NCBI RefSeq assembly: GCF_035920445.1
Contig: NZ_CP109162.1
Coordinates: forward strand, 248,001-312,000
Direction: 5' to 3'
From: Nocardia sp. NBC_01730
GTDB taxonomy: Bacteria > Actinomycetota > Actinomycetes > Mycobacteriales > Mycobacteriaceae
Length of the DNA stretch: 64,000 nucleotides
Shown here: positions 44,167 through 60,472 of the stretch, piece after piece
Layout: each line of letters opens with the position of its first letter
How positions within the stretch are numbered: position 1 is the stretch's first letter
Made by a program: the position numbers and the translations under genes
The notes under the pieces: model-generated
Seen by the model: the letters and a program-made list of their open reading frames with translations, nothing else
What the model was told of the DNA's origin: nothing
Databases searched by the model: none

Positions 44167-46395
44167 TCAGCCGAGTAGCTCCGACCGTTTCCCGCTCCAG
44201 GTCACGACCAGCTGGTCGCGGGCACGACTGGCTGCGACATACAGCAGCGAACGTTCACGTTGCATCGCCTCGGCCTGCTCTTCCTGCGGATATCCGCGCA
44301 GTGTCGCGGCGGAGGGGACATGGGCGTCGTCGATCCCGGTGAGGATGACACACCGGAACTCCATGCCCTTGGATCGGTGCATGGTCAGCACCTGGACGTG
44401 GTCGGCGCTCGCGGGTTTGTCGTCGAGCGCGCGGGCTTCGACGCCGCGTTCGCCGAGGGCGCGCACCAGTTGGCCGCGATCGCTTTTTCCACGAGTCAGG
44501 ACGGCGATACTACCCGGGGCGATGCCGTCGTCGGCAAGCCATTTTTTGACCCGATCTGCGATCTTGCCGAGTTCGTCGGTGGCGGAATCGCATTCGAGCA
44601 GGCGCGGATTCGGCCCGAGTCGGGCGGAGGTGTATTCCTTTGTCGACTCTTCGCCCTCCTCGAGATCGCGGTATTCTTCGCCCGCCAAAATGTTCACCGC
44701 GAAATGCAGGTTCTGTGCGGTGGTCCGGTAGTTCAGCGTCAGCCGGTTCGAGCGGCGGCCACGAATGTTGATGCCGAGGCGACTGAGCACCACCGGTTGA
44801 CCGTAGATTCGCTGATACGAATCCTCGGCGATGAACAGATCGTCGGGTCCCTCGGCAACGAGTGCGCGCAGCAGTGCCCAATGCGTGGCATGCAGGTCCT
44901 GGGCTTCGTCGACGATGACGTGGTCCGCCAGGCGCTCGGCTCCGGAATCGGCACGCAGTTGAAGCTCTTTGGCCGCCAAGGCCAGCACCTCGGGGAAGCT
45001 GACCGATTCGTCCATCCGGCTGCGTCGGCGGAACCCGTCGATCAGCTTCCAGACCGCGATGCGCTGCGGTCGGGTCAGGCGCACCCCACGTCCGGTTCGC
45101 ATGACCTTCGCGTACTGTTCCAGGCTGGTTACGTTGTTGCCGAGTACCACTGCGACGTACTCGTTTTCGAGGAAGCTCGGGTGCGTGAGTCGATGATCGA
45201 GCCCGCTGGCCACAGTCTGCACCACCTCCCGCCACGTCTTGTCGGTGTCGGTGCGACTGGACCCGAACTCGCCCGCGCTGGAACCGAAGACGGCTGCGAA
45301 GGCGGGGCCGAGATCGGGGGACTGGTTCAGGACGGCGTTGGCGAGCTGATCGATGCCCGCCACATAAATACCGGGTTCGCCAGGCTTGTTCGCGATGATC
45401 AGCGCCGGATCGAGGATCCGGAGATCAGCCTTGAGATCCAGGGCGAGGGTCTTGTTGAAGGTGGTCAGGATGATTCGTGCGTCCTTGTTCCGCTTCGCGA
45501 GATTCCTGGCCCGATGCAAGGCGACGACCGTTTTCCCGGTGCCCGCGCCACCGCACAGCCGGAACGTTCCCCGGTAGCTCTTCTCGGCGTACTTGCGTTG
45601 CGTCGGGTGCAGGAAGGTACGCCACTTGGCGAAGTCGCCGCCCTCGATCACACGGCGCAGTTCGTCATTGTTATCGATAATGGTGAACTGCATTTTCGAT
45701 GCAGGATGGTCGATCGCGGCGAGGATCTGGTCGTCCTCGCTGAGGGTGCCGTCCACCGGTCCGTCGGTGAAACCGTAGGCGTCGCGGATCTGGTCGATGC
45801 CGATGCCAACCGCGAGGTCGAGTAGCGCGCTGCCTTGCCAGCTGATCGCGGTGGCGGCGATCTCGATAATCGCGTTGTCGTCGGGCGCTGCGAGCGCGCG
45901 GGCGGCGAGATCTGGATCGAGCCCGAGTTGGTCTGTCAGGTCCGCACTGGTGAAGCCGAGCCCACGAAGGAAGGACGGTGTCGGTGGTTTCGCGTCCTGC
46001 TTACTCGGTGATGTCGTGAAATGCGGTGTGACAGGGCCCTTTGCGCCGTCGCTCAGCTCGCCGACGATTCCTTCGAGCACACCGTTGATCGGATTCACCC
46101 GCAGCGTGGACCGTTCGGCAAGCGTGATGGCGACATCGTGCTTCCAGGTACCGAGGTAGATATAGGTGGTTTCACCGCCGGTGTCATCGACCCGAAACAT
46201 GATGGCGCGGAAGTTCAAGTCCACCCGACCGGTGCGCACTCGTGGGTCGCGGGCACCTTTGATCGGCTCGATATGCAGGCCTGGCGCGGTGTCGTCGGCG
46301 CGGACCTTCTCGAAGAAGTCGTACACCTTGTTCTTGATCGACCCGTCGAGTTTCGGCATCGACTTGCCGTTGGTCGCGAGCACCACGTTCGCCAT
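44167..46395 (-). CDS. UvrD-like superfamily I helicase with RelE-like N-terminal domain
   Basis: In this 742-aa protein, residues 1-110 resemble a RelE/ParE-type toxin fold: SMPKLDGSIKNKVYDFFEKVRADDTAPGLHIEPIKG, VRTGRVDLNFRAIMFRVD and YIYLGTWKHDVAITLAER. A helical linker (about 140-240) follows, then an SF1A helicase: motif I GGAGTGKTVVALHRARNL (about 275), II IVDEAQDLHATHW, III LFIAEDSYQRIYG, IV NYRTTAQNL, V TMHRSKGMEFRCVIL and VI LYVAASRARDQLVV. ATG 46395 shares a base with the stop of the giant helicase gene (TGATG), so translation is coupled. The pair is probably a nucleic-acid-directed defence module; the RelE-like domain may bind or cut RNA, but this is inference. Confidence 0.82.
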   Translation of the reverse strand: MANVVLATNGKSMPKLDGSIKNKVYDFFEKVRADDTAPGLHIEPIKGARDPRVRTGRVDLNFRAIMFRVDDTGGETTYIYLGTWKHDVAITLAERSTLRVNPINGVLEGIVGELSDGAKGPVTPHFTTSPSKQDAKPPTPSFLRGLGFTSADLTDQLGLDPDLAARALAAPDDNAIIEIAATAISWQGSALLDLAVGIGIDQIRDAYGFTDGPVDGTLSEDDQILAAIDHPASKMQFTIIDNNDELRRVIEGGDFAKWRTFLHPTQRKYAEKSYRGTFRLCGGAGTGKTVVALHRARNLAKRNKDARIILTTFNKTLALDLKADLRILDPALIIANKPGEPGIYVAGIDQLANAVLNQSPDLGPAFAAVFGSSAGEFGSSRTDTDKTWREVVQTVASGLDHRLTHPSFLENEYVAVVLGNNVTSLEQYAKVMRTGRGVRLTRPQRIAVWKLIDGFRRRSRMDESVSFPEVLALAAKELQLRADSGAERLADHVIVDEAQDLHATHWALLRALVAEGPDDLFIAEDSYQRIYGQPVVLSRLGINIRGRRSNRLTLNYRTTAQNLHFAVNILAGEEYRDLEEGEESTKEYTSARLGPNPRLLECDSATDELGKIADRVKKWLADDGIAPGSIAVLTRGKSDRGQLVRALGERGVEARALDDKPASADHVQVLTMHRSKGMEFRCVILTGIDDAHVPSAATLRGYPQEEQAEAMQRERSLLYVAASRARDQLVVTWSGKRSELLG

Positions 46396-49300
46396 CACAT
46401 CACCCCGTTCGTCTCGAGTGCGTCGACGATCCGCACCACCATCGGCGGACAGACCGTCCACCCCTGCTCGGACAACGTCTTGACCACCTCGGGCTCGTCG
46501 TCCAACATCACCCCGACCCGGCCCGCCCAGGACAAGGTCATGACCACGCCATCGCGGGTTTCCTCGCCCACCACCGGCAACGGCACGCCCTCGGCCGCCA
46601 GTTGCAGGATCAGCGTCCGTTCGGCGTCGGACACAGTGAGATCGAACCGTTGTTGCCATTCGGCACTCAGTGCGAGGTTGGCGTACACCGACGCACCGCT
46701 CGGCGCGGCGGAGTCCGCGACGAGCAGACTGCGGGTGGTGATGAGATGGTTGTCGCTCAAGCCCAGCCAATTGGACAGGCGCAGCCAGTCCTTCCACGCC
46801 TTGCCTTCCTGCGCCTCCAGCGTGTCGTCGTAATCATCGAGGGCCAGTACGGCATTGATCGTTTTCGTGGCCTGCCGCATTGTCGCGCTGACCACGAGTG
46901 GGCCATGAGTGAACGACCAGCACATGTCGGTGCCTGGCGGAAAGGCCGCCGAGCTTCCGTCGAGGGCGTCGCGCGCGCGGCGGGCGATCCCGTCACCGTC
47001 GCCCTTGGCGCGACCGTCGCGTTGGAACATTATCGGCAGCCAGCGTGCCAGGGCTTCCCATGCGTCCAGATCCGGGTTCTCGACCAAGGCGATCAGCTGA
47101 GTGATCGGATCGGCCGTCAGTAGTTCGACCACTGTGGGCTGCAGCGTGACCACGCTGGTCATCCGCTTGGCGTGGCCGTGCGCATACCACGACGGTTGCG
47201 CCGACTCCTTGCTCTTGAAGTGCTGAAGATCCTCGTGCCCGAATGCCCAGACGAGGTGGCCGCCCGCACGCAGGACCGCGCGTTTGTCGGCATCGTCGGC
47301 GACCTGGTTGTGTTCGGGTGTCGCGTGGTATTTGCGGCCGTCGGCGAAGATCGCGATGGGCGGAATCGTGGCGTCGTCGGTGCTGAGCTCGAAGTCGGGT
47401 CGCGCGGCCCCCACCAGTACCTGCGGGGTCAATGTCCACGTGCGAATCGTTTTGCCCGACACGGTGATCTTGGCCGAAGGGCCGTAGGTGCCTGCTTTTT
47501 CCCTGACCGTCGCGCCCTTGGATCTCCACCGTTCGATGAAGGCGGCGTAGAACTCTTTCTCCAACGGGGATTCTTCGCTGCCAACGGATTTGGTGGGTGT
47601 GGCGTGGACGATTCTCGCTTGCCACGAATCCCACTGTGGCTGCGCGTCGTCGCCGACGTCGAGCAACTGGTCGAGCAGTTTCGCTGCCGTCTTCCTGGAT
47701 ACCAGGTCCATCTCGTGTGGTGGGGCGAACGGCAGCAGGCACTTGTGGCATGCGAGCCGTTCTTGTTCGGCACAGTCGCAGGTCGAGACGACCTCCCGTG
47801 CCGCGCGCAGCACCGACCACACCTTCCCGGCATCGGCGAACTCGGCAAGATAGCCGGTGCCGCCCGGCACGGTGTCGTGGATCAGTAGCGCCCGCTGGTT
47901 GGGTGCGTGCAGCGCGTCGGGAATGCTCGCGACGTCGAGGTGTTCGGGTGATCCGCCGATCACCTGCCTGAGCCCGAGCAGGATCGCCGCACTCAGACTC
48001 GGGTGCGCGAACGGGTCGTATTCGAGGGCGACCGGCAGGTGCAGCAGTACCGCCTGGGTCCGCAGCGTGCGGGCGAGCGCGATCTCGTCGACGTGCTCGG
48101 TGGTCGCGGTCCGGTAGCGGCACCAACTGCGGTGTTCGTGCCGCACATTGCGCCCCGACGTCCGGTTCAGCTGCCCGCATCCCCGGCACACCCGGAACAA
48201 GCCGGTGGCCGTCTCCTGGCCCGCGATCATGCGCTTGCTGCCCTGGGAGCTTCCCCGCCCCATATTGAGCCAGCGAATATCGGTGTGGCGCAGGTACTCC
48301 GCGCCGAAATCGAGATCGGGAACGAACCACGCACTTCCGATGTTCTCCGGTTTGATGTCGGCGGCGGTGACGATCGTGAACGACTCCCGGTGGCGCTCGT
48401 CGCGGGCGTCGTTGATAACGGCTTCATCGCGTCGCACAGCGGCGGAGACTCTGGACATCTCGACCACGCGCAACTGCTGGCTGACATCGGTGACGGCGCT
48501 GCTGTGGCACCGTGGGCACTGTGATACCCGCGCGACCTCGTGGCCCGCGGGAGTCGTCTGAGCCCAACCGCAGCGCGGGCACATGCGCCACAGTTCGATC
48601 TTCGACTCGTTCGCGCCGAGGTCGACAGCGTCGATCTGTACGGCCAGACCCTGTGCGTAAAACGTTGCACCAGGGGCGAGTTCGGTAAGCGCGATCCGCG
48701 ATCCGCGGCGATAACTGACGGTGTCGCTCAGGTACTCCTTGGTGTCCGGGTCGATCCAGGTGACGCCGACGTCGAGGGTCACCGAGTCGTCGAGCAGCGT
48801 GTAGTTGGGTAGTACCCCGTACCGTTCGAGCACGCTGATCCAGAAGTCGGCGGTCAGCTCGTAGATCTGACCGCCGAGCAGTTTCAGCGATCCTTTGGCG
48901 GTTTTGAAGTCGCGCTTGTCGTCGTCGGTGGCGGCGGGAGCGTTCGCGCGGCGCTCGAATTCCGGGAGCTCGGCCAGGACCGCGTCGCGCCGGGCGTTCA
49001 GCTCGGTGTAGTCGTTGTTCCACCTGTGCACCGACTCGCGCAGGAATGCCGTCAGTGCACTGTCCGCGTCGGCGTGCGGTGTCGCCCATGCACGAAGGGC
49101 GTCGGCGGCGGGCTCGGCCAGGGTGCCGTCGAACTGGGCGAGGAATTCGTCGAGCAGCTCGGTGGCCCGATGGTCGGCGAGGGCGATCAGGTTCCCCATC
49201 CAGCTACCCACGTCGAAGCTACGCAGCACATCCTGCGCCTCGAGCCGTGGCGTGAAGGCGCCGGTGGTCGCTCGGGCGATGCGGTCGACGATGTGCGCGA

Positions 49301-52300
49301 TGTACTGCCGTTGCAGTATCTCCTCGGCGGTCAGGAAGGTAGCCGGTGGACGGACCTCGCCCTGAATCACCGACAGTGGTTCGTTGAGCTTCGGCAGATG
49401 TTCGCCGCGTCCGCGAACGAAGGCGAGCACCAGGGAATTTCCCGTGCGGCGTCCGGCGCGACCGACCCGCTGTAGGTACGACGACACGGTGCGTGGCAGC
49501 GACCCCAGCATGACGGTGGACAGGTCGCCGATGTCGATACCCATCTCGAGTGTCGGGGTCGCGACCAGGACGTTCGGTGCCTGCGGGTCGGCGCTCCCAT
49601 TCTTGAACGCCGCCTCGTAGGCCAGTCGCGTCTGCGCGGGCAGCAGCGACGTGTGCTCCCTCGCGACGACCCGCTTCATCTCCGATTCGCCGTAGAGCGT
49701 GCGATAGAAGTTCGACGAGTTGATCCCGCGCTGCAACGTCCCCGGACAGCGGTCCAGCATGCAGGGAGCCCCGTCGAGTTGATCGATGACGAGCTGGCTG
49801 CCGGGGTTCGGCGTCCGGCAGACCGTGCACACCAGCAGATGCTTGTGATCGACGAGGTCCTGCTCGTCGGGGACGCTGACCGCGACAGCTGCCGCAGTGA
49901 GTCCGTATGCGGTGAGACCACTTTCGGTGGTCAGCTCGGTGATTACACGCTTCTCGGCAAGCACCGAGAACAGCGACTTCGCCAGGTGTCCCGCGTCGCC
50001 GGGCGCGACACTCAGGCATTGCGCCGCCCATTTGGCGTACCAGGATGTCGGGGCGGTGATGGAGTCGAAGCCCTCTGGCACGCTGCGTGAGCCGATCGCG
50101 GGAAACGCGGGAGCGGGCCTTCCTTTGGGGAATGCGGGCATCCCCTCTCCGCGTGGCCGCCCGCCCCAGACCCAACGCCGGTTCGCGTCCTTCGCGATGT
50201 ACGTTTCCAGCCATCGGTGGTGGATGGCGCCACGCATGCGCACCCGTTCGACCGTGCCGCGGACCCAGCGCGTGATCGCGGCAGAATCCGGTGCAGTGAG
50301 CGGCAATTGGTGGTCGATGGCGTCCATCGCGGCGCGGCCGAGTTGCTGGGCGCGATCACGTGCGCCGAGATTCACCTCGGCGACCGCGCTGCCGGTGAGT
50401 TCGAGCGTCCGGCCGAGCCGCGATTGCAGCCCGAACTCCAGGTCGATGTCGAACTGCAGCCGCAGCAGTGCCCGCCTGGTGGCATCGCGGCGTTGCCGCG
50501 AGGTGGCGTCCGCTCGCCAGAAGTCGACGAACTCGTCACGTTCGACGATGTCGGGTGCGAGCAGGTGGTAGCGGCGGATCGGGTCGTTGCCGGCGCGGTC
50601 GACGACCGCCGCGGCGAGTTCCGGCAGGGTCAGCTTGTCGGGTCCCATCGCGCTGCGCAGTGCCGAGCGCAGGCTCAGCGTGTGTGAACGTGCTTGGACG
50701 AATCCCGCGCGGTGCGCGGCATCCTGCACGCTGTCGGTGAACATCAACGCCTTTTTCTCGTCGGTGTCCAGGCCGGCGTCGCCGAACATGTTGGACAGCG
50801 TCACCGACAGTTGGGTCGCCACCGCGCTACCGAGGAACCGGATGCCGTCGGTGGTGCCGCAGGAAGGGCACTTGTCCGCCTTCGATTCCTCGTCGGCGTC
50901 CGGCCCGGTCAGCACGAGGACCGGAAGCACGTTGCCGTTCAGATAATCGGCGCCTTCGAGATCCGGTGCCGTGTCGGTGATGTCGCGGTCGTAGAGCCGG
51001 AACCAGCGCAGCCCTTCGACGGTCGTGTCGAAGGCGGCTTCGGCGGGTGCGGAGATGAGAGCGCGGAATCGGCCGTCGCCCGCGGCGTGGTCGCCGCGAA
51101 TGTTTTTGTCGGAGTGGTCGAGTGTGGTGCCGGTCGGCGCGAGTCGCGCACCCCACCCCGAGCGTCCGCAGTGGCGGCAGAAGATCGCGGGCAGGTACAT
51201 GGTCTGCGGATCTTCGGGTGGTCCGTCGTCGGACCAGTGATAGGCCGTCGCGGTCGAGACGGCTCGGTCGATCCGGGTCAGTTCCCGAATCCACAGGTGC
51301 ACATCGACACTCAGTGCGGTGCGGCCGATTTCGGTGCGCAGGTACGACAGCACCGCTAGGAGGTGTTCGAGGAAGTGTGGTCGTTTCGCTGCCGCGCCGG
51401 TCGGGGTGACAGAGCTGGTGAAGATGTCGGCGACGACATCGGCCATCGAAATGGCGTCGACGGTGCGCCGGACCAATTGGGCGAAGCCGTCGTGGGTTTT
51501 CAGCAGGCACAGTTGATCTACCGGTTCGAACAGGGCGAAATTGTCCACGAGTTCGGCGGGGTCTTCGACACCGTCGGTCGACCGAAACAGTGTCGCGAGT
51601 ACTTCAGCAGCCAGGGCCTTGCCGCCGCGCTCGGCGGCTTTCTCCAGGCGGCTGAGCACCTTGGCGTCGGTGGTCGCCGGGGTTATCGGTTCGAATCGTG
51701 TCCCGAGCGCGGCATCCCGATCCGCCAGCCACTCGCCGACCTCGAGTCGGGTCTCGCCGATCACCGCGTCGCTGTCGAAAACCTCGCCGAACACGGTGTG
51801 CGCGAAGTCGAGCATCGCCGTCGGCGCTGCCTTGGACCCGAGCGTGGCGGAGGTGGCGACCGGCGTGATCCGGCCGAGTGGACGCGCCCGGTCCTCCTCG
51901 GTCACCGCCGTCCGATCGGTCCAGTACGACTTGACCGTGAGGCCGAGCCGCCGCAGCAGCATGGCCACGTCGGTACCTTGGGCACCGTCATAGGTGTGGA
52001 ACTCGTCCAACACGATGTATTGCAATGAGTGCGCGGACAATCGCCACATATCGGCGCGGTCGGGGCGCAGCAACAGATGGTCGAGCATCTTGTAGTTGGT
52101 GAGCAAGATGTCCGGCGGTGACTTGTGCAGAAGGTTGCGGTCGGTGATCAATCCGGCTTCGGAGACGATGGTGCGTTCCGAGGACTGCTCACCGGTGAAT
52201 AGCCCGGCCGTGACCTCGGCCAGGCGCGGGTCATCGGTGATGACCTTCGCCAAACGTTCCGCCTGGTCATTGGCCAGCGCGTTCATCGGGTAGAGGATCA

Positions 52301-52709
52301 GCGCCTTCATCCCGGTGATGCCCGCCCGCCTGGCTCGCAGGACATGGTCGAGGATCGGGAATAGAAACGATTCGGTCTTACCGGAACCGGTACCGGTGGT
52401 CACCAGCGTCGGTTTCGGACGCTGCTGCGTTTTGGTCGAGAGTCGCTCGAACGCGGCGGCCTGGTGGCCGTAGGGGGTGAATCCGTCAGGCCGCCAATCC
52501 AAGTGCACGCCCCAGTTGCCCCTCGCCGGGGCGAATGGCAGCCGTAGCCGGACATAGGGGCCCTTGAAGATCCCCGCCGCCGGGTCGCCGATGAAGTCCG
52601 CCAGCGCGCCGTAGGCGTCGGGGTCGGTGAGCGCGAAAGTCGTCGTGAGGTAATCGGTCAGGCCGTTGCGCAGACGACGGGCCTGCAACGTGGGCAGTAG
52701 TTCCCCCAA
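46395..52709 (-). CDS. Giant DEAD/DEAH helicase with DUF1998 (DruE-like)
   Basis: In this 2104-aa protein, a superfamily II helicase core has Walker A GTGSGKT (residues 106-112), DEFH in VLDEFHTYDG, SAT in VATSATLG and motif VI QRVGRAGRRTGNS, with a long insert between the RecA lobes. Several Cys4 zinc knuckles are visible (CRHCGRSG, CPSCGTTDG, CPRCGWAQ with CPRCHSSA, CRGCGQLN). A DUF1998/MZB region includes VPGGTGYLAEFAD and CDCAEQERLACHKCLLPF. Near the C-terminus, ARPDFELS and IAIFADGRKYH resemble a PD-(D/E)xK-like nuclease or its relic. Size and order match DruE of Druantia and related DISARM helicases. The start is TTG 52709, with GGAAGAGAG upstream. Confidence 0.85.
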   Translation of the reverse strand: MGELLPTLQARRLRNGLTDYLTTTFALTDPDAYGALADFIGDPAAGIFKGPYVRLRLPFAPARGNWGVHLDWRPDGFTPYGHQAAAFERLSTKTQQRPKPTLVTTGTGSGKTESFLFPILDHVLRARRAGITGMKALILYPMNALANDQAERLAKVITDDPRLAEVTAGLFTGEQSSERTIVSEAGLITDRNLLHKSPPDILLTNYKMLDHLLLRPDRADMWRLSAHSLQYIVLDEFHTYDGAQGTDVAMLLRRLGLTVKSYWTDRTAVTEEDRARPLGRITPVATSATLGSKAAPTAMLDFAHTVFGEVFDSDAVIGETRLEVGEWLADRDAALGTRFEPITPATTDAKVLSRLEKAAERGGKALAAEVLATLFRSTDGVEDPAELVDNFALFEPVDQLCLLKTHDGFAQLVRRTVDAISMADVVADIFTSSVTPTGAAAKRPHFLEHLLAVLSYLRTEIGRTALSVDVHLWIRELTRIDRAVSTATAYHWSDDGPPEDPQTMYLPAIFCRHCGRSGWGARLAPTGTTLDHSDKNIRGDHAAGDGRFRALISAPAEAAFDTTVEGLRWFRLYDRDITDTAPDLEGADYLNGNVLPVLVLTGPDADEESKADKCPSCGTTDGIRFLGSAVATQLSVTLSNMFGDAGLDTDEKKALMFTDSVQDAAHRAGFVQARSHTLSLRSALRSAMGPDKLTLPELAAAVVDRAGNDPIRRYHLLAPDIVERDEFVDFWRADATSRQRRDATRRALLRLQFDIDLEFGLQSRLGRTLELTGSAVAEVNLGARDRAQQLGRAAMDAIDHQLPLTAPDSAAITRWVRGTVERVRMRGAIHHRWLETYIAKDANRRWVWGGRPRGEGMPAFPKGRPAPAFPAIGSRSVPEGFDSITAPTSWYAKWAAQCLSVAPGDAGHLAKSLFSVLAEKRVITELTTESGLTAYGLTAAAVAVSVPDEQDLVDHKHLLVCTVCRTPNPGSQLVIDQLDGAPCMLDRCPGTLQRGINSSNFYRTLYGESEMKRVVAREHTSLLPAQTRLAYEAAFKNGSADPQAPNVLVATPTLEMGIDIGDLSTVMLGSLPRTVSSYLQRVGRAGRRTGNSLVLAFVRGRGEHLPKLNEPLSVIQGEVRPPATFLTAEEILQRQYIAHIVDRIARATTGAFTPRLEAQDVLRSFDVGSWMGNLIALADHRATELLDEFLAQFDGTLAEPAADALRAWATPHADADSALTAFLRESVHRWNNDYTELNARRDAVLAELPEFERRANAPAATDDDKRDFKTAKGSLKLLGGQIYELTADFWISVLERYGVLPNYTLLDDSVTLDVGVTWIDPDTKEYLSDTVSYRRGSRIALTELAPGATFYAQGLAVQIDAVDLGANESKIELWRMCPRCGWAQTTPAGHEVARVSQCPRCHSSAVTDVSQQLRVVEMSRVSAAVRRDEAVINDARDERHRESFTIVTAADIKPENIGSAWFVPDLDFGAEYLRHTDIRWLNMGRGSSQGSKRMIAGQETATGLFRVCRGCGQLNRTSGRNVRHEHRSWCRYRTATTEHVDEIALARTLRTQAVLLHLPVALEYDPFAHPSLSAAILLGLRQVIGGSPEHLDVASIPDALHAPNQRALLIHDTVPGGTGYLAEFADAGKVWSVLRAAREVVSTCDCAEQERLACHKCLLPFAPPHEMDLVSRKTAAKLLDQLLDVGDDAQPQWDSWQARIVHATPTKSVGSEESPLEKEFYAAFIERWRSKGATVREKAGTYGPSAKITVSGKTIRTWTLTPQVLVGAARPDFELSTDDATIPPIAIFADGRKYHATPEHNQVADDADKRAVLRAGGHLVWAFGHEDLQHFKSKESAQPSWYAHGHAKRMTSVVTLQPTVVELLTADPITQLIALVENPDLDAWEALARWLPIMFQRDGRAKGDGDGIARRARDALDGSSAAFPPGTDMCWSFTHGPLVVSATMRQATKTINAVLALDDYDDTLEAQEGKAWKDWLRLSNWLGLSDNHLITTRSLLVADSAAPSGASVYANLALSAEWQQRFDLTVSDAERTLILQLAAEGVPLPVVGEETRDGVVMTLSWAGRVGVMLDDEPEVVKTLSEQGWTVCPPMVVRIVDALETNGVM

Positions 52710-52901
52710 GATCGGCTCTCTTCCGTTTCCGTGTCGCGCAGCAGCGTCGTGAGTGGTTGTCGGCCGGTCTCGCCGACGCCCGCCCCCTTCGTCGTGCCGG
52801 GATTCGTGACCCCGACTCTGCTTCGCCCTGCTGTTATCCCATCCCGCACCTGACGATGGTGCGTTTTGCGATACACGACACCGAGACAGGCGCTCACCAA
52901 C

Positions 52902-53094
52902 CTACCAAGCGGCTGTAGCAACGGCTTCGCGGTTATCACCGGACAGGGTTGCCGCGGAGCGGTTGGTCGGCGAGTTCCCAGGCGTAATCTGGGCCGCTTC
53001 TCGCGGTAGTCCATCGACGGTGACCTGCACCGTTCGCCGGAGCCGAGTCCGCATTTCGGTAGTGTCGGCGGGGATCGCCGCGACGGTGCCGCCG
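52902..53094 (-). pseudogene. Relic of an espG 3' end
   Basis: The segment 53002-53093 matches 55942-56034, the last coding part of the espG gene, at most positions. It encodes IPADTTEMRTRLRRTVQVTV where espG has IPADTTEIRTQLQRTVQVTV. The frame then runs on through unrelated sequence to 52902. No start codon or upstream espG sequence exists. It is the right-hand partner of a direct repeat that brackets the effector cassette. Confidence 0.75.
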
Positions 53095-53201
53095 CCGATC
53101 ATCGCCTCTCCGGGGAGTGGAACTACTTGCGGCGGACTATGCACACGACACCGAGCCGCGGTGTCGATTCTCATCGAGCGACCGCGGGGCGGTCGGGTAT
53201 C

Positions 53202-53729
53202 TCACGGTGCAGGTACGAGACGTCCCTTCGGGTCACGGATCAACACTGACGGAGGTGCGAGGGCGAGCCGGTCGTTCAGACGGAGCGGCTTTTTATCGCC
53301 TGTCCAAATAATCTTCTGGACAGGCCTGTTGTTGGCGAAGAATAGGTAGTACCCCCACGGCACCTCCGTGCTCGAATCCTGTTTTGCGGGAATTCCCTTC
53401 CAGCAGCCCGGCGCGACGTTGGCCTGCGCGGCGCGGCTCAGATCCTCGGGGTCCATAGCCGGTTGCACATCCACCATTCGTTCCCAGCCGTCGGTCCATC
53501 CGGCCGCACGGGTGACCTCGATGAGCGTCACCGAGTCGGAATCCCGCGCCGCTTTCCCCAGTTCCTCGGTGAACCTCGTACCCGAACCGAGCGTTTCGAT
53601 ATTGCCGTAGAAGTTGACAACTTCTGCGTTGCAGGGCAATTCGGGCGAAGACGATGACGCGAACGGTCCGATGCAGCCACTCAATATCGGCACCAGTGCT
53701 GCGACAACGATCAAGTATTTACTTTTCAT
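53202..53729 (-). CDS. Small lipoprotein, candidate immunity protein
   Basis: This 175-aa protein begins MKSKYLIVVAALVPILSGCIGP, a lipoprotein signal peptide with lipobox LSGC (Cys at about 19). The mature part contains two regions typical of a compact secreted domain: VTLIEVTRAAGWTDGWERMVDVQ, and WKGIPAKQDSSTEVPWGYYLFFANNRPVQKIIWTG. I recognise no enzyme family. GGAGCGAG precedes ATG 53729. It starts only 11 bp after the stop of the WXG/DUF6973-like toxin gene, the position usually taken by an immunity gene, and a lipoprotein immunity partner fits a toxin acting outside or at the membrane. This role is inference. Confidence 0.65.
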   Translation of the reverse strand: MKSKYLIVVAALVPILSGCIGPFASSSSPELPCNAEVVNFYGNIETLGSGTRFTEELGKAARDSDSVTLIEVTRAAGWTDGWERMVDVQPAMDPEDLSRAAQANVAPGCWKGIPAKQDSSTEVPWGYYLFFANNRPVQKIIWTGDKKPLRLNDRLALAPPSVLIRDPKGRLVPAP

Positions 53730-53740
53730 TGCTCGCTCCG

Positions 53741-54970
53741 TTACTTCCCAGGAAGAGGTACGCTGACTCCAGGTTGGATCGCGGTATCGCCAGGTTGCAC
53801 GCTGTTGCTCCATGCGATTTGTGGGTTGGCTCCCTCGGTCGGAGCATGGAGCACGATCATATTTCCCTCTTGAATAGACGCGCCGATCTTGGCTTTCAGT
53901 TCTTCTGGACTGGCATCAGGGTTGTCCCGGCCGATTTCCCGGCCTTTTTCGTTGTTGAACAGATCCATCGCTTCGCGGGCCGGTGGGTTACCGCCGGACT
54001 TCTCGTGTGCGGTCGTGTACGCCTTGGTCCAATCGTCGCCGAATTCCTGTGTCATCCGTGCGTTCCAGTACGTGTGACGAAATGCGTCTCCGTGTCCGTC
54101 TGCGTCGGCATTCCTCTGAAGGTCTTCGTTCTTCAGCCCTTTATACTGCTCCAGGCCAGCCTGCTCTGCCTCGTTCTTGATTTGGTAGAAGTCCCAGAGG
54201 CCGACTGCGCCGTGCCGGGAGACAAGCATCTCCAAGGCGTTGGCCTCTTCGCGCGGAAGTGAACTCGGCTGGAAGCTCGGGTCCATGGTACGGATGTAGT
54301 CGAGCAACCAGCCGCTCGGCCACACCACAGGGGCGGATTCCGATGCCTCGGTTTGATAGTCGGCGAGGATCTTCGCCAGGGTCGGGTCGGTCGGCATGGC
54401 GACCAGTGCCTGCTTGGCAGAGTTCGGCACCTGCTCGAGCAGATTCTGGATATTTCCCTCGGCGGTGAGATCGGCTTCCTGGATTCTGCTCAGGGCTTGA
54501 CGTAGTCCGCCGGTTAGCCGGATTTCTTCGAGCTCCTTTCTGGCGACCGCAGTGCCTGGTGCCCACCAGTACTTCTTCATCCACTCCCAGTTGGATTTCC
54601 GAGACGACACTCCGCCGTCATCGTGGTAGAACAGATCCCACTCGGAGTCTTCGACCTCCTTGATAACGGCGCGAATCAGGAGGATCATGCCGTCGAAAAT
54701 GGCAGCCGTGGAAGTGATAATGCCGGACATCGACTCATAGAGGTCCACTGTGACGAGCGCATCCTTGCGATCGTCTTGGGTGCGCTGTCGCGCTGATTCA
54801 CCGGTTGCATTGTCGAAATACGGTTGCGAGTCACCGACCGCGCGAGCAACTGCCTCGACTTCCGTTTCGATTTCTCCTGCGGCCCGGGAAAGAATCGAAG
54901 CCAGCTCCCTTGCGGGACTCAGATTCCACTGCAGCACCTCCGGGATCAGCAGGTCTTTGGCCTCGCTCAT
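53741..54970 (-). CDS. WXG-type secreted protein with DUF6973-like C-terminal domain (candidate T7SS toxin)
   Basis: In this 409-aa protein the N-terminal 100 residues are helical like a WXG100/LXG-type leader (PARELASILSRAAGEIETEVEAVARAVGDSQPYFDNATGESARQR). A helical hairpin and a linker follow. At about residues 290-345 the motif GDAFRHTYWNARMTQEFG, then TTAHEKSGG and MDLFNNEKGREIG, matches the DUF6973 domain found at the ends of polymorphic toxins. The conserved His and Asn residues could be catalytic. The start ATG 54970 overlaps the preceding EspC-like gene. The gene order resembles ESX effector cassettes. Toxin activity is inferred, not shown. Confidence 0.72.
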   Translation of the reverse strand: MSEAKDLLIPEVLQWNLSPARELASILSRAAGEIETEVEAVARAVGDSQPYFDNATGESARQRTQDDRKDALVTVDLYESMSGIITSTAAIFDGMILLIRAVIKEVEDSEWDLFYHDDGGVSSRKSNWEWMKKYWWAPGTAVARKELEEIRLTGGLRQALSRIQEADLTAEGNIQNLLEQVPNSAKQALVAMPTDPTLAKILADYQTEASESAPVVWPSGWLLDYIRTMDPSFQPSSLPREEANALEMLVSRHGAVGLWDFYQIKNEAEQAGLEQYKGLKNEDLQRNADADGHGDAFRHTYWNARMTQEFGDDWTKAYTTAHEKSGGNPPAREAMDLFNNEKGREIGRDNPDASPEELKAKIGASIQEGNMIVLHAPTEGANPQIAWSNSVQPGDTAIQPGVSVPLPGK

Positions 54971-55266
54971 CGCGGACCTTCTTGCGTGAATCGGGCGGCT
55001 CGCATCTGGTCCTGGTTCTCGAAATCGGTCACCGCTTTGTCCAAGATGTCCGCGACGCCGGTAAACCGACTGGCATGGAACTTCAGCACTCCGTCGAGTG
55101 CCTGCAAAGTCTCCTGTACCCGGGTAAGTGCCAGTGACTCGTCCGCTCCCTTACGGGATTCGTCACGGGCTGGGATGGCCATTGGCGCCTTGCCGTCGAC
55201 CGTCTCCGCATGTCCGCGCACCTGACTGGCGAGTTCCCGGACTCGCCCTGGGTCCATATTGAACAT
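54967..55266 (-). CDS. EspC/DUF2580-like type VII secretion target
   Basis: This 99-aa protein begins FNMDPGRVRELASQVRGHAETVDGK and ends KFHASRFTGVADILDKAVTDFENQDQMRA, two helices joined by a turn. This is the EspC/DUF2580 pattern of small ESX-secreted partner proteins; the C-terminal YxxxD/E-like signal is loosely represented. Its stop overlaps the start of the toxin-like gene by 4 nt (ATGA), which suggests that the two proteins are made and perhaps exported together. Confidence 0.7.
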   Translation of the reverse strand: MFNMDPGRVRELASQVRGHAETVDGKAPMAIPARDESRKGADESLALTRVQETLQALDGVLKFHASRFTGVADILDKAVTDFENQDQMRAARFTQEGPR

Positions 55267-55275
55267 TCCCTGACC

Positions 55276-55632
55276 TCAGATCACATATCCGTGGTCGCCG
55301 AACCCGCCGTGACCGGGACCGCGCTCATCGTGTCGGCTCGCCGGGGCGAACGTCGACGGTTGGTACTCCGATGACAACTCCGTGAAGACGCGCTCGGCTT
55401 CGGCCTCGGCATTCGCGTGTGCGACACGATGCCGATCGGTGATGAGCGCAGCCAGTCGATCCGGATCATGCTCCTGCGCATAGGGCGACAGCTGGAGATC
55501 GGTGATCGCCCCGCGGGCGTCGGTCTCGATATAGACGGTGCTGTCGGTGGATTGCGCTCGTCCGCGCACCCGCTCTGTCGCCTCGTTGATCCGCTTGACC
55601 CGCGCCGCTAGTTCGTCCGTGTTTTCGATCAT
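55276..55632 (-). CDS. YbaB/EbfC-family DNA-binding protein
   Basis: This 118-aa protein has the YbaB-like core LAARVKRINEATERVRGRAQSTDSTVYIETDARGAITDLQLSPYA, followed by a helix HANAEAEAERVFTELSSEY and a short tail. Such YbaB paralogues are common in ESX clusters of Mycobacteriales, where their role is unclear (nucleoid binding or an EspC-like partner). GGGGGAGC before ATG 55632 is a good ribosome site. It lies 9 bp upstream of the EspC-like gene. Confidence 0.82.
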   Translation of the reverse strand: MIENTDELAARVKRINEATERVRGRAQSTDSTVYIETDARGAITDLQLSPYAQEHDPDRLAALITDRHRVAHANAEAEAERVFTELSSEYQPSTFAPASRHDERGPGHGGFGDHGYVI

Positions 55633-55827
55633 TTTGCTCCCCCATAGCTGCTCGTATCCTGCTCCGCGCCTACGGTAACAGTGTTCGGTGCAGTCGCGGG
55701 TGCATCGGTCGCGGGTGCATCGTGACTCTGCTCGCATCCCCGGATGCCACACGAAACCGCAGCCGTGAGCGATCATGTCAGCGGTCAAGTAATTCCCGAC
55801 TTATCTTCGTGTCATCGGGCGGTCATG

Positions 55828-55907
55828 ACAGCGGCGATCAGTCGGGAACCTGTGCACATGATTCGGTTCGTGAGCATGACCCGAATCGGGTGTATCTGCC
55901 CGGGGCC
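55828..55907 (+). pseudogene. 80-bp relic of the XRE/TPR regulator gene
   Basis: The segment is the same length as 62711-62790 of the intact regulator gene and matches at many positions: ACAGCGGCGATCAGTCGG versus ACTGCGGCGATCAGCCGG, ATTCG, GCATGACCC and GGGTGTATCTGCCCG versus GGGTGTATGTGCCCG. It has no continuing frame. It sits in the gap between ybaB and espG, next to the espG 3' repeat, marking a recombination junction. Confidence 0.65.
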
Positions 55908-55916
55908 GATCGAAGC

Positions 55917-56678
55917 TCACGTGTAGTTCGGGTCGTTGTCCTCGCGGTAGCCCTTGACAGTCACCTGCACCGTTCGCTGGAGCTGAGTTCGTATCTCGGT
56001 GGTGTCGGCGGGGATCGCCGTGACGGTGGCTCCGCTGCGGACGAGGTAGCGGCCGTCTGGATAGTCCATCACGTGGAAGCCCCTGGCGGGTGTGGGCCGG
56101 TTGTCCCATGCCGGGCCCGCGTAAACCCCGACGTGGGCGATAGTCGTGCGCGGGCGTTCGAAGAACCGTGCGGCCCGCACGCGCGGCGTCGGCTGTGCGC
56201 CCACGCGGTACGGCTCTTCGTGCTCGGTGTCGAGATCGTGTCGGGAGACCTCGATGCGGGGGCCGCCGCCGCGGGGAGCGGGTGGCAGCAGGTCGATGAG
56301 CCGACCGCTGACCGCATCAGCGTCGATCAGCGACATGTGAACGGCCCCACCGTGATCCGGTGACGAGGTCGGCTCCTGTACCAGCAGCACGGCATGCCGG
56401 TAGTGGACGGCGGCGTGCACCCGCATCTTCCGCTCGCGGTCGAATCCCGCGAGCTCGATGCGTGCTTCCGGTTCGGCGAGCACGCGCAGCGCGCCGTACA
56501 GCGCTTCGTCGAAACACCGATGTAGTCCGGCCGCTTCGGATTTCCAGTCTTCCTCGTATTCGGCGATCGTTTCGGCGGTGGACCGATACTGCAACGGGTA
56601 GGGCAGTACGTCACGGTCGACGGCGCGCCACAGCACCGTGAAGCCGAGCGCCGTGAACGACCAGTCTCTTCGACTCAT
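55917..56678 (-). CDS. espG: ESX secretion-associated chaperone EspG
   Basis: This 253-aa protein has the EspG pattern: SRRDWSFTALGFTVLWRAVDRDVLPYPLQYRST at the start, ELAGFDRERKMRVHAAVHYRHAVLLVQEP, and PRVRAARFFERPRTTIAHVGVYAGPAWDNR, with a C-terminal GRYLVRSGATVTAIPADTTEIRTQLQRTV. EspG binds PE-PPE heterodimers in the cytoplasm and delivers them to the ESX machine. ATG 56678 is chosen for family length; ATG 56717 and GTG 56726 are alternatives. It follows a PPE/WXG-like gene. No core ESX genes (eccB-E, mycP) lie in the window. Confidence 0.82.
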   Translation of the reverse strand: MSRRDWSFTALGFTVLWRAVDRDVLPYPLQYRSTAETIAEYEEDWKSEAAGLHRCFDEALYGALRVLAEPEARIELAGFDRERKMRVHAAVHYRHAVLLVQEPTSSPDHGGAVHMSLIDADAVSGRLIDLLPPAPRGGGPRIEVSRHDLDTEHEEPYRVGAQPTPRVRAARFFERPRTTIAHVGVYAGPAWDNRPTPARGFHVMDYPDGRYLVRSGATVTAIPADTTEIRTQLQRTVQVTVKGYREDNDPNYT

Positions 56679-56763
56679 GACGCTCGTTCGCTCGTCATAC
56701 ACCTCGGACTCGTACATCGTGGGCACGTCATGGAGATATGCATGGTGGCGACGGTGCGTGCGG

Positions 56764-58038
56764 TCATTCGCCGATCACCGGGGGCACCGTCTTGGTGCGG
56801 TTGTGCTCGCCCAGACCGGTGAGTTCCTCGCCGTTGCGCTGGTTCACCAGGTAGTCCTTCGTCTGGTGCTCCTTGTCGTCGTCGCCCTTGCCGCGGGCTC
56901 CCGGCGGTGTCATACCCGGCATCCCGGCCATGCCGGGACGGTTCGCGCCGGGACGAGTCGTGGCGGCGGGAGCGACGCCGAGAAGACCGGGTACGCCGGG
57001 GACACTCCGGCCCGGAGCCGGTGTACCGGGAGCTGGAAGGCTCGTCGTACCGGGGCTCGGCGTATTGAGGTGTCCGGTGCTGGGTGTGCCGGGGCGGGTC
57101 AGTGCCGGATCGGTGGCTGTGCTCGCCGGTTGAGTCGATGGGGTGTTCGTGTTCGCGGGGGTCGTCGTCGACTGAGCGGTCGTATTTTGCTGTGTATCAA
57201 TAGGATCAGTGCCGGTCGTTACGGTGTCCTGCGGGTTTTCGCTGGTGCCGGCCGGCTGACTGGATTGCGTTGTGCTGGATGTGTCGCCGGGCGAGGTACC
57301 TGGTGACGGGGATGGCCCAGGATTGCTCGACGGGGACGTCGGGCCACCGGGCTGGTATACCGGGTTGTACGGCTTGGGCACCAGCGGAACACCGGTATCG
57401 GATTCCCGGACCGCGGGATAGAAGACGTTCTTCACGACATTCACCGACGCGTCGTGCGCGGCATCGTCACGGTGCCGGTTCGCCTTCCACGTCGGGCCGG
57501 GCACCCAGCTCGCGAGGTCGCTGGTCCAGGTGTGGCTCGGCGCTTCCTGCACGGCAGGCCGGGTGACCTCGATGCCCGACCGGATGATCTTCACCTTCTC
57601 CGCGACGATCCGCACCGAATCGATCAGCCCGGCGGACTTGTCGACGTACTCCTTGACTCCATCCGCCGCGGCCTTCGCCGCCGCGCCCTCCCACTTGCCC
57701 GCCATGGCTTTGTTGATTTCCGGGGAGAAATCGCGCAGGCCCTGGTCCAACCTGTCCCGAATGGACTCCCACCGCTGATGCAGCGCCACGACATCCGTGA
57801 CCGACATCGCCTGCACCCGCTGGTAAAGATCGTCGATATCGTCCGGATTCTTGTACGCGCTCTCCGGGACCTGCGGCGACTGGGTCTGCGCCACACCACC
57901 ACCGCGCATGACCTCGGCGATCCGGTTGCGGGCAATAGCCGCATCGGGACTCTCGTCGCGTGAGCCGCTGTCCGGCGGACCGGATTTCGACTGCTCGTAC
58001 AGTGCGGCAGCGATCGCGACCAAAAACGGTAGACCCAT
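56764..58038 (-). CDS. WXG/PPE-like proline- and threonine-rich secreted protein
   Basis: This 424-aa protein has a helical WXG-like domain at about residues 65-160: VTDVVALHQRWESIRDRLDQGLRDFSPEI, then KWEGAAAKAAADGVKEYVDKS with a WxG turn. From about residue 225 a long Pro/Thr/Ser/Gln low-complexity tail follows (PGPSPSPGTSPG and similar), and the charged end holds GDDDKEHQTKDYLVNQ. This is the layout of Nocardia PPE-like/ESX substrates served by EspG, the next gene. GGGGGA precedes ATG 58038. It is probably exported and partly disordered. Confidence 0.75.
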   Translation of the reverse strand: MGLPFLVAIAAALYEQSKSGPPDSGSRDESPDAAIARNRIAEVMRGGGVAQTQSPQVPESAYKNPDDIDDLYQRVQAMSVTDVVALHQRWESIRDRLDQGLRDFSPEINKAMAGKWEGAAAKAAADGVKEYVDKSAGLIDSVRIVAEKVKIIRSGIEVTRPAVQEAPSHTWTSDLASWVPGPTWKANRHRDDAAHDASVNVVKNVFYPAVRESDTGVPLVPKPYNPVYQPGGPTSPSSNPGPSPSPGTSPGDTSSTTQSSQPAGTSENPQDTVTTGTDPIDTQQNTTAQSTTTPANTNTPSTQPASTATDPALTRPGTPSTGHLNTPSPGTTSLPAPGTPAPGRSVPGVPGLLGVAPAATTRPGANRPGMAGMPGMTPPGARGKGDDDKEHQTKDYLVNQRNGEELTGLGEHNRTKTVPPVIGE

Positions 58039-58052
58039 GACCGTCCCCCAGA

Positions 58053-58427
58053 TCAGTTCAGCAGAGTGTTGGTGTTTTGTGCGTTCGCTTGGTCCTGGGC
58101 GACGGTGCGATCCACGGAGATCTGGATGGTGTCGCGCATCAGGGTGAGTACCTCGATGTGCTCTTTCAGCGCCGAGTCCACGTCACCGTCACCGCCAATT
58201 GCCTTGGCTCCCAGCACCTTTGCGAGTTCGTCCGAGCAGTCGAAGCGGCCGAGCCCAGTGACTCGCGTTAGCATCTCCAGTTCATCTCGCAGGGCAACGT
58301 AGAGATCGATTTGACGGTTACAGGCGTCGCGGCATCCGATTGCGACGGAGCTGTCCAGATAGAGACGGCCAGCATTGGCTTCGTCAGCAAGATATCGCCA
58401 CCGCGTCACTTCCTCGCTTATCGACAT
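58053..58427 (-). CDS. Small helical ESX-cluster protein
   Basis: This 124-aa mostly helical protein (WRYLADEANAGRLYLDSSVAIGCRDACNRQIDLYVALRDELEML and EHIEVLTLMRDTIQISVDRT) has the size and helix pattern of WXG100-like or PE-like partners but lacks a WxG turn. It has three Cys. AGGGGGA before ATG 58427. It is transcribed directly before the WXG/PPE-like gene (14-bp gap), a position usually occupied by the PE or WXG partner. Family not recognised with certainty. Confidence 0.65.
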   Translation of the reverse strand: MSISEEVTRWRYLADEANAGRLYLDSSVAIGCRDACNRQIDLYVALRDELEMLTRVTGLGRFDCSDELAKVLGAKAIGGDGDVDSALKEHIEVLTLMRDTIQISVDRTVAQDQANAQNTNTLLN

Positions 58428-58442
58428 AAAAATTCCCCCTGA

Positions 58443-58991
58443 TCAGCGTGGAAACTCTGAGACGAGCACCTTGGCTGCGTTCGTAGCTCGATCACATGGA
58501 AGTACCGTGCTTTTCTGCGTATTGAAGATGCTGACCTGTAGCGCACCCTGATCAGCAGGAAAGATGAGATCGCAGTCGTCTCTGTTTGCCCCGGTTGTGG
58601 TTTTGAAACTAAATCCGTCCCGTCCGCTCACACTGATGTTGACGAAATCAGTGTTTTCGGGCTTTTTCTTGAAGTCGTCAACAGTGTGAGTCGTCGACCA
58701 TACGACAAGAGAGTAACTCCACTGGGAAGGCGCGTCATGCCAGGAGCAAACCTTAAATCCAGGTTGTTCGACACCCGCGACTCCTGACTTCTTCGTGGAA
58801 GAGACCACGCCGATCTGCTGCAGCAGCTGATCCGAGACCTGGGTGCACGGGTCCCAAAGGGCGGCGCTGGCCGCCGACGGGTCTGCGACGGTGCTCGGTG
58901 TGGCCGTGCCCTCTGTCTGTGACCCGCATGCCGAGGCGACCAGCACCACCCCGGCGAACGTCGCAACTGTCGCCATCGTCCGTCGTCCCAC
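58443..58991 (-). CDS. DUF3558-family lipoprotein
   Basis: This 182-aa protein has a lipoprotein signal peptide, RRTMATVATFAGVVLVASACGS, with lipobox ASAC (Cys at about 22). The mature part reads LWDPCTQVSDQLLQQIGV, FKVCSWHDAPSQWSYSLVVWST and RDDCDLIFPADQGALQVSIFN, the DUF3558 pattern with paired cysteines that is common in Nocardia and Rhodococcus ESX clusters. GTG 58991 is selected because GGGAGG lies 6 nt upstream. It is the first gene of the minus-strand ESX accessory operon. Confidence 0.82.
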   Translation of the reverse strand: MGRRTMATVATFAGVVLVASACGSQTEGTATPSTVADPSAASAALWDPCTQVSDQLLQQIGVVSSTKKSGVAGVEQPGFKVCSWHDAPSQWSYSLVVWSTTHTVDDFKKKPENTDFVNISVSGRDGFSFKTTTGANRDDCDLIFPADQGALQVSIFNTQKSTVLPCDRATNAAKVLVSEFPR

Positions 58992-59180
58992 CGAAGCCTC
59001 CCGATCTGGGCCGTCGAAATCGTCCCTGAAGTCTATGACGCGCCAACGCGCGGTTCGGTTCCCAGGGATATTTTCTTCGGTCGGTCGAGGTGGTTCGGTA
59101 CGGTTGGCGCACCTGCCCCCGCCTCGGCAGGACTCCGGTTGGCGTGGCGTCCCAGCTGCCGATTCAACGGTGCACAGTAC

Positions 59181-59371
59181 TGAATCCAGCTGGTACGAAG
59201 GATGATTCGACAGGCGCGTCCGACGTGTGGATGTCTCGCTTTCGTACACGTCCCCGCGAGGTCACGAAGGATCGGCGGCGGGCTGGGATCGTGCTTCCGC
59301 TGTGCCGATGCTATGTGTGACCGGTTCCCGCGCAGGTGATGATCGATTGCACGACGGTGCTGATGTGTGGG
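59181..59371. repeat. Direct repeat copy A, about 191 bp
   Basis: It matches copy B (60473-60661) over its whole length with scattered changes. Identical stretches include GATCGTGCTTCCGCTGTG and several others, the longest covering the last 37 or so bases. Read on the minus strand, the end encodes HISTVVQSIITCAGTG, the C-terminus of the protein at 60601-61056, so copy A contains a relic of that gene's 3' end. The rest of the gap 58992-59476 shows no gene. Confidence 0.75.
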
Positions 59372-59464
59372 AGCAGTTCCTGGCCTTCACGTACGCCGAG
59401 CGCCATCGCGCATAACAGGGGTGAACTTCTGCCGATTGGGCTGACCAGGGCCGCGCGGCCGTCC

Positions 59465-59479
59465 TACACTGCTTGCGTG
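59465..59479 (+). promoter_or_regulatory. -10 box and leaderless start of antitoxin gene
   Basis: TACACT (59465-59470) lies 6 nt upstream of GTG 59477, which fits a leaderless transcript for the toxin-antitoxin pair. Confidence 0.4.
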
Positions 59480-59749
59480 ACCGCTGCACACGACTACGAG
59501 GACATGCACCACCTGGTGGACCAGCTCACCCCGACCCAGGTGCGACGCCTGCGTCTGCTCGTTACCCAGGACGAGGAGCTGTCCCAGGTCGCTCAGACGC
59601 TTCACGAGGCCGAGTCGCCCGAGGCGGAGGCGGTCCCGGAGGGGCTGCTGGCCCTGATCGGCAGTATCGACGGCCCGGCGGACCTGGGCGAGCGGCACGA
59701 CGACTACATCCGCGAGCGGATGCGCGAGCGCTTCGGCGACTCGGCGTGA
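59477..59749 (+). CDS. Antitoxin of a VapBC-like pair
   Basis: This 90-aa acidic protein begins TAAHDYEDMHHLVDQLTPTQVRRLRLLVTQDEE, the start typical of actinobacterial antitoxins partnered with PIN toxins, and ends RHDDYIRERMRERFGDSA, a helix expected to occupy the toxin groove. The start at GTG 59477 follows a -10-like TACACT. Its stop overlaps the GTG start of the PIN gene (GTGA), the usual coupling in such pairs. No clear ribbon-helix-helix motif is seen. Confidence 0.75.
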   Translation: MTAAHDYEDMHHLVDQLTPTQVRRLRLLVTQDEELSQVAQTLHEAESPEAEAVPEGLLALIGSIDGPADLGERHDDYIRERMRERFGDSA

Positions 59750-60155
59750 TCGCCACAGTCCTCGACACCGGCCCCTCGCGGCAGCGCTGAACACCGGCGA
59801 CCGTCGGCACGCCGAGTGCGCCTCACTGCTGATGTCGCTCACCGGCCGCCGCCTGCTGCCCAGTCCGGTCATGACCGAGGTCTGCTGGCTACTGGAGTGC
59901 TGGCCCAAGGTCGAGGCCGCGTTCCTGGCCCAGGTCGCACGGGGAACCTTCGAACTGGTGCAACTCACCCCCGCCGACCTGACCCGGATGGGCGAGCTGG
60001 TCCTCCAGTACGCCGACTTCCCACTCGGCGGGGTCGACGCCTCGGTCATCGCGGTGGCCGAAAGCTTCGGTGTAGACCGGGTGGCCACCCTCGACCGGCG
60101 GCACTTCAGCGTCGTCAAGCCTGCCCACATCCCCGCGTTCACGCTCTTGCCCTAG
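59746..60155 (+). pseudogene. PIN-domain toxin (VapC-like), frameshifted
   Basis: The gene starts GTG at 59746 with IATVLDTGP, holding the first catalytic Asp. One C is then missing in GGCCCCTCG near 59774, and the rest continues in the next frame: LAAALNTGDRRHAECASLL, LLPSPVMTEVCWLLECW with the Glu, GGVDASVIAVAESFGVDRVATLDRRHF with the third and fourth Asp. All four acidic positions survive. The lesion is a single base in a C run, so this may be a recent inactivation, phase-like variation, or a sequence error. Confidence 0.78.
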
Positions 60156-60256
60156 ATCCGCCCAGCGGTCTACGCCTCTGACGGCAGCGCTGACGGCAAC
60201 AACTCTGGACATCGCCGCACTCTCACGCACGTCAGCTGAGGGACAAACTGCCGTTT

Positions 60257-60274
60257 ACCTGCATAAACGCAGGT
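60257..60274. terminator. Hairpin after the toxin-antitoxin pair
   Basis: ACCTGC-ATAAAC-GCAGGT is a perfect 6-bp inverted repeat, overlapping a second palindrome GTTTA-CCTGCA-TAAAC. It could terminate the toxin-antitoxin transcript or be a protein-binding site. Confidence 0.35.
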
Positions 60275-60282
60275 AGGTAGGG

Positions 60283-60400: not shown

Positions 60401-60472
60401 ATGCGGGTTCGTGTCCACGCTGCGGTGCCGGAGGTGCGAGAGTTCTTGGGGAAGCGGGCGGCTCGGCTGTAA
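60401..60472 (+). pseudogene. 3' relic of the XRE/TPR regulator gene
   Basis: These 24 codons read MRVRVHAAVPEVREFLGKRAARL-stop, matching the last residues of the intact regulator (RVRIHATVPEVREFLGKRAALV). The upstream part of the gene is absent and replaced by the HINT-toxin relic. Confidence 0.75.

Follow-up and report, generated by a model that had tools for sequence, protein, structure and literature searches.

A probable ARMADA type II locus of Nocardia, split between armB and armC by DarTG and ESX-type genes

Two coupled helicase genes

In the 64,000-nucleotide stretch of the Nocardia sp. NBC_01730 genome analysed here (contig NZ_CP109162.1, positions 248,001 to 312,000; hereafter the window), two coupled helicase genes lie on the minus strand, and they most probably represent armC and armD of the anti-phage system ARMADA type II. 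The armC gene (46395..52709) encodes a 2104-amino-acid YprA/DruE-like superfamily 2 helicase with a C-terminal Vsr-type nuclease, and armD (44167..46395) encodes a 742-amino-acid protein in which a RelE-like domain is fused to a GajB/UvrD-type superfamily 1 helicase. The TGA of armC and the ATG of armD overlap by one base, and both open reading frames were confirmed as the initial annotation, made from the sequence alone, had described them. The start codon of armC is TTG, in place of which relatives have ATG or GTG. When we searched protein databases with the two products, the best 120 of 3607 and the best 120 of 2356 matches were listed; those listed were full-length for both products (96-100% of the query covered), the named ones came mostly from Nocardia, Rhodococcus, Gordonia and mycobacteria, and several ArmC/ArmD pairs shared an organism.

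ARMADA type II, an anti-phage system of four genes, was described by Bell et al. in a preprint of September 2025 (PMC12458937). It consists of a BrxHII/RapA-like helicase (ArmA), a PglX-like methyltransferase (ArmB), a YprA-like helicase with a Vsr nuclease and a second Vsr-like domain (ArmC), and a RelE-GajB-like helicase (ArmD). The strains used to test it were E. coli NCTC 12900 and ATCC 8739, and protection from phages needs all four genes there (PMC12458937). ArmC and ArmD of the window align over nearly their whole length with those of four-gene ARMADA loci on E. coli plasmids at 29-32% identity; residues 4-2086 of ArmC align at 28.9% identity with ArmC of the plasmid ARMADA II locus L061. 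The pair, which had been presented as unnamed, thus already belongs to a named system.

The domain composition of ArmC agrees with this assignment. Pfam recognised DEAD, Helicase_C and MZB (MrfA zinc-binding) domains. A Vsr-type PD-(D/E)XK nuclease domain is predicted at about residues 1711-1881 (47067..47579, minus strand), followed in the C-terminal tail by a second Vsr-like fold (about residues 2025-2102; 46404..46637, minus strand). The Vsr-type fold was found in the C-terminal model by VIA-align at a moderate Z, and the catalytic-type residues of the domain were invariant across 15 sequences. Foldseek with the same model returned nothing below an E value of 0.001, the top match being SfsA (E 0.034), and a sequence search of the PDB gave no relevant match for either the ArmC C-terminus or the ArmD N-terminus.

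The top PADLOC family of ArmC is DruE3 (292 bits in three stretches), so the giant protein was rightly called DruE-like as a matter of resemblance. This match is also what speaks for a Druantia variant, that is, a DruE protein working with a partner that has escaped recognition. The initial annotation had judged the layout to be neither Druantia nor DISARM, and its judgement holds: the DruE profile matches, and no Druantia partner appeared in the PADLOC hits shown for the remaining nine open reading frames scanned (25 of 39 in the case of the UvrD gene). Moreover, the ArmC C-terminus has the Vsr-type domain and the second Vsr-like domain of ARMADA II, whereas DruE of Druantia III has PLD domains (PMC12458937), and armD, like the linked ArmA and ArmB, is consistent with ARMADA. 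We therefore regard a Druantia variant as scarcely credible.

For ArmD, Pfam recognised UvrD-helicase and UvrD_C, and the nearest PADLOC families were a NERD+UvrD family and GajB. Its N-terminus (about residues 1-95; 46111..46395, minus strand), which the initial annotation had likened to a RelE/ParE toxin, was assigned to this fold by hhalign and by the order of strands and helices in the model. When we aligned it with a profile of four ParE sequences, hhalign gave 74% in local mode, 55% in global mode and an E value of 2.7e-5, compared with 2.6% (local) for the best of 50 column shuffles. The profile was built from four of the six ParE loci fetched, the reading frame being ambiguous in the other two. 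Pfam at E values up to 5 found no RelE/ParE domain in the N-terminus of the window ArmD and gave weak ParE-type matches for the N-termini of E. coli and Streptomyces ArmD (E 0.08-0.1). A fold search with the ArmD model returned a list filled by helicases, which is therefore uninformative on the N-terminus.

RelE-UvrD proteins also occur beyond ARMADA. One is found on a Pseudomonas plasmid alongside a restriction helicase and a methyltransferase (L121:3621-11046), and others in genomes G013 and G029 (L047, L048) lie, judged by eye, near restriction-modification-like genes. The RelE-UvrD part seems to be common to several defence operons.

The upstream half of the operon

The initial annotation had described a two-gene module with no partner visible. 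That is true inside the window, which stops at C1:312000; the near end of armB lies only 1.1 kb outside. When we used Nocardia ArmB and ArmA as queries, matches were obtained in the same genome at C1:313128-317549 (armB) and C1:317810-320404 (armA). In window numbering, armB occupies 65128-69552 and armA 69810-72404, both on the minus strand, as is armC, and upstream of it. ArmB, in line with a PglX-like methyltransferase, matches Pfam Eco57I/N6_Mtase, has an NPPW motif in its translation and is 34% identical to ArmB of the E. coli plasmid. ArmA matches SNF2-rel_dom and Helicase_C, in line with a BrxHII/RapA-like helicase, and is 37% identical to its E. coli plasmid counterpart. The PADLOC BrxHI/BrxHII family had been tried as the ArmA query and proved unspecific in this genome (18 helicase matches; all 14 of 14 control genomes positive), which is why Nocardia ArmA was used instead. 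By coordinates, the four genes follow the order ArmA-ArmB-ArmC-ArmD on one strand, and all four are free of stops over their full length.

The same association was seen across genomes. In a first sample of 99 whole genomes, the window's own included, ArmC was present in 17, and 16 of these also hold ArmA and ArmB. In all 17, ArmC was followed by an ArmD match no more than 1 kb downstream, so that the linkage between the UvrD protein and the giant helicase, on which the initial annotation had depended, is consistent. In a wider sample of 301 genomes of the family, ArmC was found in 49 and ArmB in 49, with both in 48; the two genomes holding one of them singly are fragmentary (G112 is 66% complete, and in G372 the match begins at a contig end). 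ArmD-like proteins of 65-68% identity occur in genomes without ArmC (G013, G029 and G055), and ArmD by itself is therefore no marker of ARMADA.

These data also bear on the possibility that ArmC and ArmD act alone as a genuine two-gene system, with the nearby ArmA and ArmB forming a separate methylation system. Two observations count in its favour and against a four-gene assignment: the halves are separated by 12.4 kb in this genome and by as much as 41 kb in relatives, and G049, the sole exception among the 17 genomes, holds ArmC and ArmD (L082:6149-14720) with no ArmA or ArmB match anywhere in the genome. In G049, however, ArmC is in two overlapping frames, and its ARMADA system is probably decaying. 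ArmB accompanies ArmC in 48 of 49 genomes, armB and armC are adjacent in 28 of 29 more distant relatives, the E. coli plasmid locus has the four genes in a row, and all four were required in E. coli (PMC12458937). Since ArmA and ArmB were found just beyond the window and in relatives, we reject a two-gene system, which we consider very unlikely.

Based on the four genes, their order, intact frames and domains, and their co-inheritance across genomes, all of which are direct observations, we suggest with a probability of about 90% that the pair is ArmC-ArmD of ARMADA type II and that the full set armA-armB...armC-armD is present, split by DarTG and ESX-type genes.

The armB-armC gap and its contents

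The distance between armB and armC in this genome is 12.4 kb, so the locus is not the contiguous operon of E. coli. Gene order, and not contiguity, was named as strict for ARMADA by Bell et al. (PMC12458937). We read the insert as a variant and not as disqualifying, because the same split is present in 22 of 25 loci with a close ArmC, with order and gene set preserved. When we compared gap lengths (approximate, taken from match ends), a gap of more than 1 kb was found in those 22 of 25 loci, in which ArmC shares 62% identity or more with that of the window, versus 1 of 29 loci with a more distant ArmC. The Fisher p value for this association, 6e-11, overstates the evidence, since the genomes share kinship. 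These counts exclude loci that are fragmentary or divided between contigs (G025, G112, G145, G192, G226, G322 and G372), G049, which has no armB, and G116, in which half of armB is inverted. Within the genus, 15 of 16 loci measured are split, by 2.6 to 41 kb; the exception is G034, whose ArmC is divergent (38%). The split of the operon is thus lineage-specific, and the halves remain in one region although they are as much as 41 kb apart.

A further alternative is that the insert killed the system, leaving a decaying locus in which armC and armD are no longer expressed together with armA and armB. The interruption of the operon itself points this way and against a working ARMADA locus, as does a comparison of the regions upstream of armC in 20 loci, in which no conserved leader or promoter was seen (mean ungapped identity 0.27-0.31 by block). 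Against it, the four frames are full-length and stop-free, the split recurs in 15 of 16 loci of the genus, and ArmC is 62-69% identical across split loci. We consider a dead system improbable and favour an intact, split ARMADA type II locus.

The insert begins beside armB with a co-directional DarT-DarG pair. The darT gene (64322-64963, minus strand, outside the window) matches PADLOC DarT at 226 bits and Pfam DarT at 194 bits. The darG gene, encoding the macro-domain antitoxin, has its 3' part in the window (63245..64000, minus strand) and continues to 64318 outside it, with 421 bits to PADLOC DarG and 83 bits to Pfam Macro. A DarT ADP-ribosyltransferase thus lies beside its macro-domain antitoxin, as in DarTG. 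In a phage collection, DarT was found in a single record, from a Thermus phage, at 36% identity. Between darG and armC (52710..63244) Pfam recognised ESX/type-VII-like genes and a helix-turn-helix regulator; the former, at 53202-59249 on the minus strand, encode EspG, EspC-like, YbaB-like, DUF6973 and DUF3558 proteins, the EspC-like match being slightly below its Pfam cut-off. By eye, small WXG100-like genes similar to this cargo are present in several Nocardia gaps.

At least 11 of the 22 gaps carry another defence module, as judged by profiles or by tblastn with the DarTG of the window genome; this is a raw count, uncorrected for the background of defence families beside random genes in these genomes, and a lower bound, since the profiles were run on selected genes of each gap, for the most part the one or two nearest armB. 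DarTG was found in the gaps of G000, G020, G010 and G026. The gap of G038 has GajA-GajB (783 and 652 bits), and that of Nocardia aurantia (G366) has AbiEi-AbiEii. In Rhodococcus SMB37 (G242) an AriA-like (PARIS-like) ATPase (121 bits) is joined by a partner that was not recognised, and Rhodococcus ARC_M6 (G260) has DRT UG17 (485 bits). The gap of R. gordoniae (G194) holds the gene for an OLD-like ATPase (107 bits), with a one-base overlap between its stop and the start of armC, that of G302 an Mrr_cat-nSTAND1 protein (Pfam 30 and 40 bits; no PADLOC match), and that of G217 a GmrSD protein. Matches were weaker or unclear for an AbiEii-like gene in G123 and for the contents of G037, G035 and G031, and in G360 only a recombinase and a piece of armB were found. 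The gap genes tested gave no recognised family in G156 (Pfam and PADLOC) or in G259 and G051 (Pfam only). The gaps of G342 and G021 were judged by eye only, and that of G030 lay outside the profile scan.

Some cargo appears tied to ARMADA more closely. In R. gordoniae (L099:16399-19143) and Prescottella subtropica (L089:10446-13196), a protein of 914-916 amino acids with GmrSD_N and GmrSD_C domains is encoded between armC and armD. Over its final 103-134 residues it shares 62% identity with the ArmC tail of the same locus, compared with 49-51% for the ArmC tail of the other locus; a restriction-type nuclease therefore carries the tail of ArmC. In G026, two perfect direct copies of a 351-bp stretch comprising the armC 5' end and leader flank DarTG (L031:10086-10436 and 12568-12918). 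They suggest either a recent capture of DarTG by a single crossover or an assembly fault, the assembly being a draft in 480 contigs. When 19 further gap loci were compared with themselves, no repeat of this kind was seen.

Rearrangements of armB were also seen. In Skermania (L098) and G360, the gap has an inverted armB piece beside a tyrosine recombinase gene, and G116 (L114) has one half of armB in inverted orientation. The inverted pieces, which are C-terminal and perhaps represent the target-recognition part, lie at L098:5303-6634 and 7638-8969, L105:675-3106, L114:1115-8047 and L089:87-1852. Together with the recombinase, they resemble a phase-variation device in which DNA inversion alters the specificity or activity of ArmB. 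Separately, two gaps contain an ArmD paralogue with an AAA_15/OLD-like ATPase (L038:9752-13521 and L109:5349-9108; Pfam on L038 only). The L038 paralogue is 44% identical to the window ArmD, and each pair resembles Gabija, with a helicase that bears a RelE-like N-terminus.

Downstream of armD and convergent with it lies a Wadjet type II system, JetD-JetA-JetB-JetC (35798-43941, plus strand). The Wadjet neighbour to which the initial annotation had pointed is confirmed; the integrase relic it had also mentioned was not found among the window open reading frames scanned, which were not all of them. The ArmC-ArmD pair is probably defensive. In G051 (L037), Wadjet-like genes appear, by eye, inside the armB-armC gap. 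Elsewhere in the window, Rfam identified a 16S-23S-5S ribosomal RNA operon (15476-20687, plus strand).

Possible function and comparison with known systems

From the families of its components, the following mode of action may be proposed. ArmB would methylate host DNA, and the system would distinguish self from phage DNA. ArmC would load on infection-associated DNA, probably, like DruE, where single strands are exposed, travel along unmarked phage DNA and cut it with its Vsr-type nuclease. ArmA and ArmD may serve as additional ATP-driven helper motors, and the RelE-like domain of ArmD may contribute a function directed at nucleic acid or the ribosome. The armB-armC interval would be an exchangeable slot, whose modules, here DarTG, might act if the first line fails.

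The gap is possibly a slot for back-up effectors, a functional link that we infer. We further put forward, tentatively and as something less than an even chance, that ARMADA II of Nocardia, Rhodococcus and Gordonia has built-in sockets, between armB and armC and, in two Rhodococcus/Prescottella loci, between armC and armD, for exchangeable, wired back-ups of the toxin-antitoxin, abortive-infection or nuclease type that fire when phages block ARMADA. The Vsr-like tail of ArmC might then be a docking domain borrowed by GmrSD, and DarTG the guard at this locus. If the slot is functional, ARMADA would join BREX and restriction operons as hosts of second-line defence, and its diverse contents would offer many natural tests of the trigger of each guard. 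The GmrSD protein with the ArmC tail gives a direct handle on how ARMADA parts assemble. The analysis also corrects a false call of a new two-gene system; the partners were concealed by the insert and the window edge, so solo-gene calls near such inserts need a check over 10-40 kb.

The ARMADA family itself is already known, and the split-operon variant with a cargo slot appears to be new. No published description of a split ARMADA operon or cargo slot was found in a search that left out most subscription papers and supplements, and literature listings showed no paper linking ARMADA to Nocardia or DarTG, neither of these words occurring in PMC12458937. As in ARMADA type II, all four components are present in the same order in this Nocardia. 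The differences are that 12.4 kb of cargo including DarTG interrupts the Nocardia operon between armB and armC, and that the tests in the cited part of PMC12458937 were in E. coli only.

Druantia type III (DruE-DruH) likewise has a YprA-family helicase fused to a C-terminal nuclease, and its DruE, after loading on 3' single-stranded DNA, assembles and goes on to cut (PMC13192584). It differs in nuclease type, partner genes and gene number, and no DruH was among the hits shown for the open reading frames scanned. The DarTG module agrees with known DarTG in that the DarT and DarG profiles match over nearly full length, and differs in lying within an ARMADA locus and running in the same direction. 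In EcoprrI, PrrC is a guard of the toxin type encoded within an operon for DNA restriction; its toxin family is another one, and guarding by DarTG is here only putative. BREX core loci embed back-up effectors proposed to act once phages disarm the main system, and OLD/PARIS-like, GmrSD and other nuclease modules lie inside the core operon as they do here (PMC12839542); the host system there is BREX, and the main text of that paper does not contain the word ARMADA.

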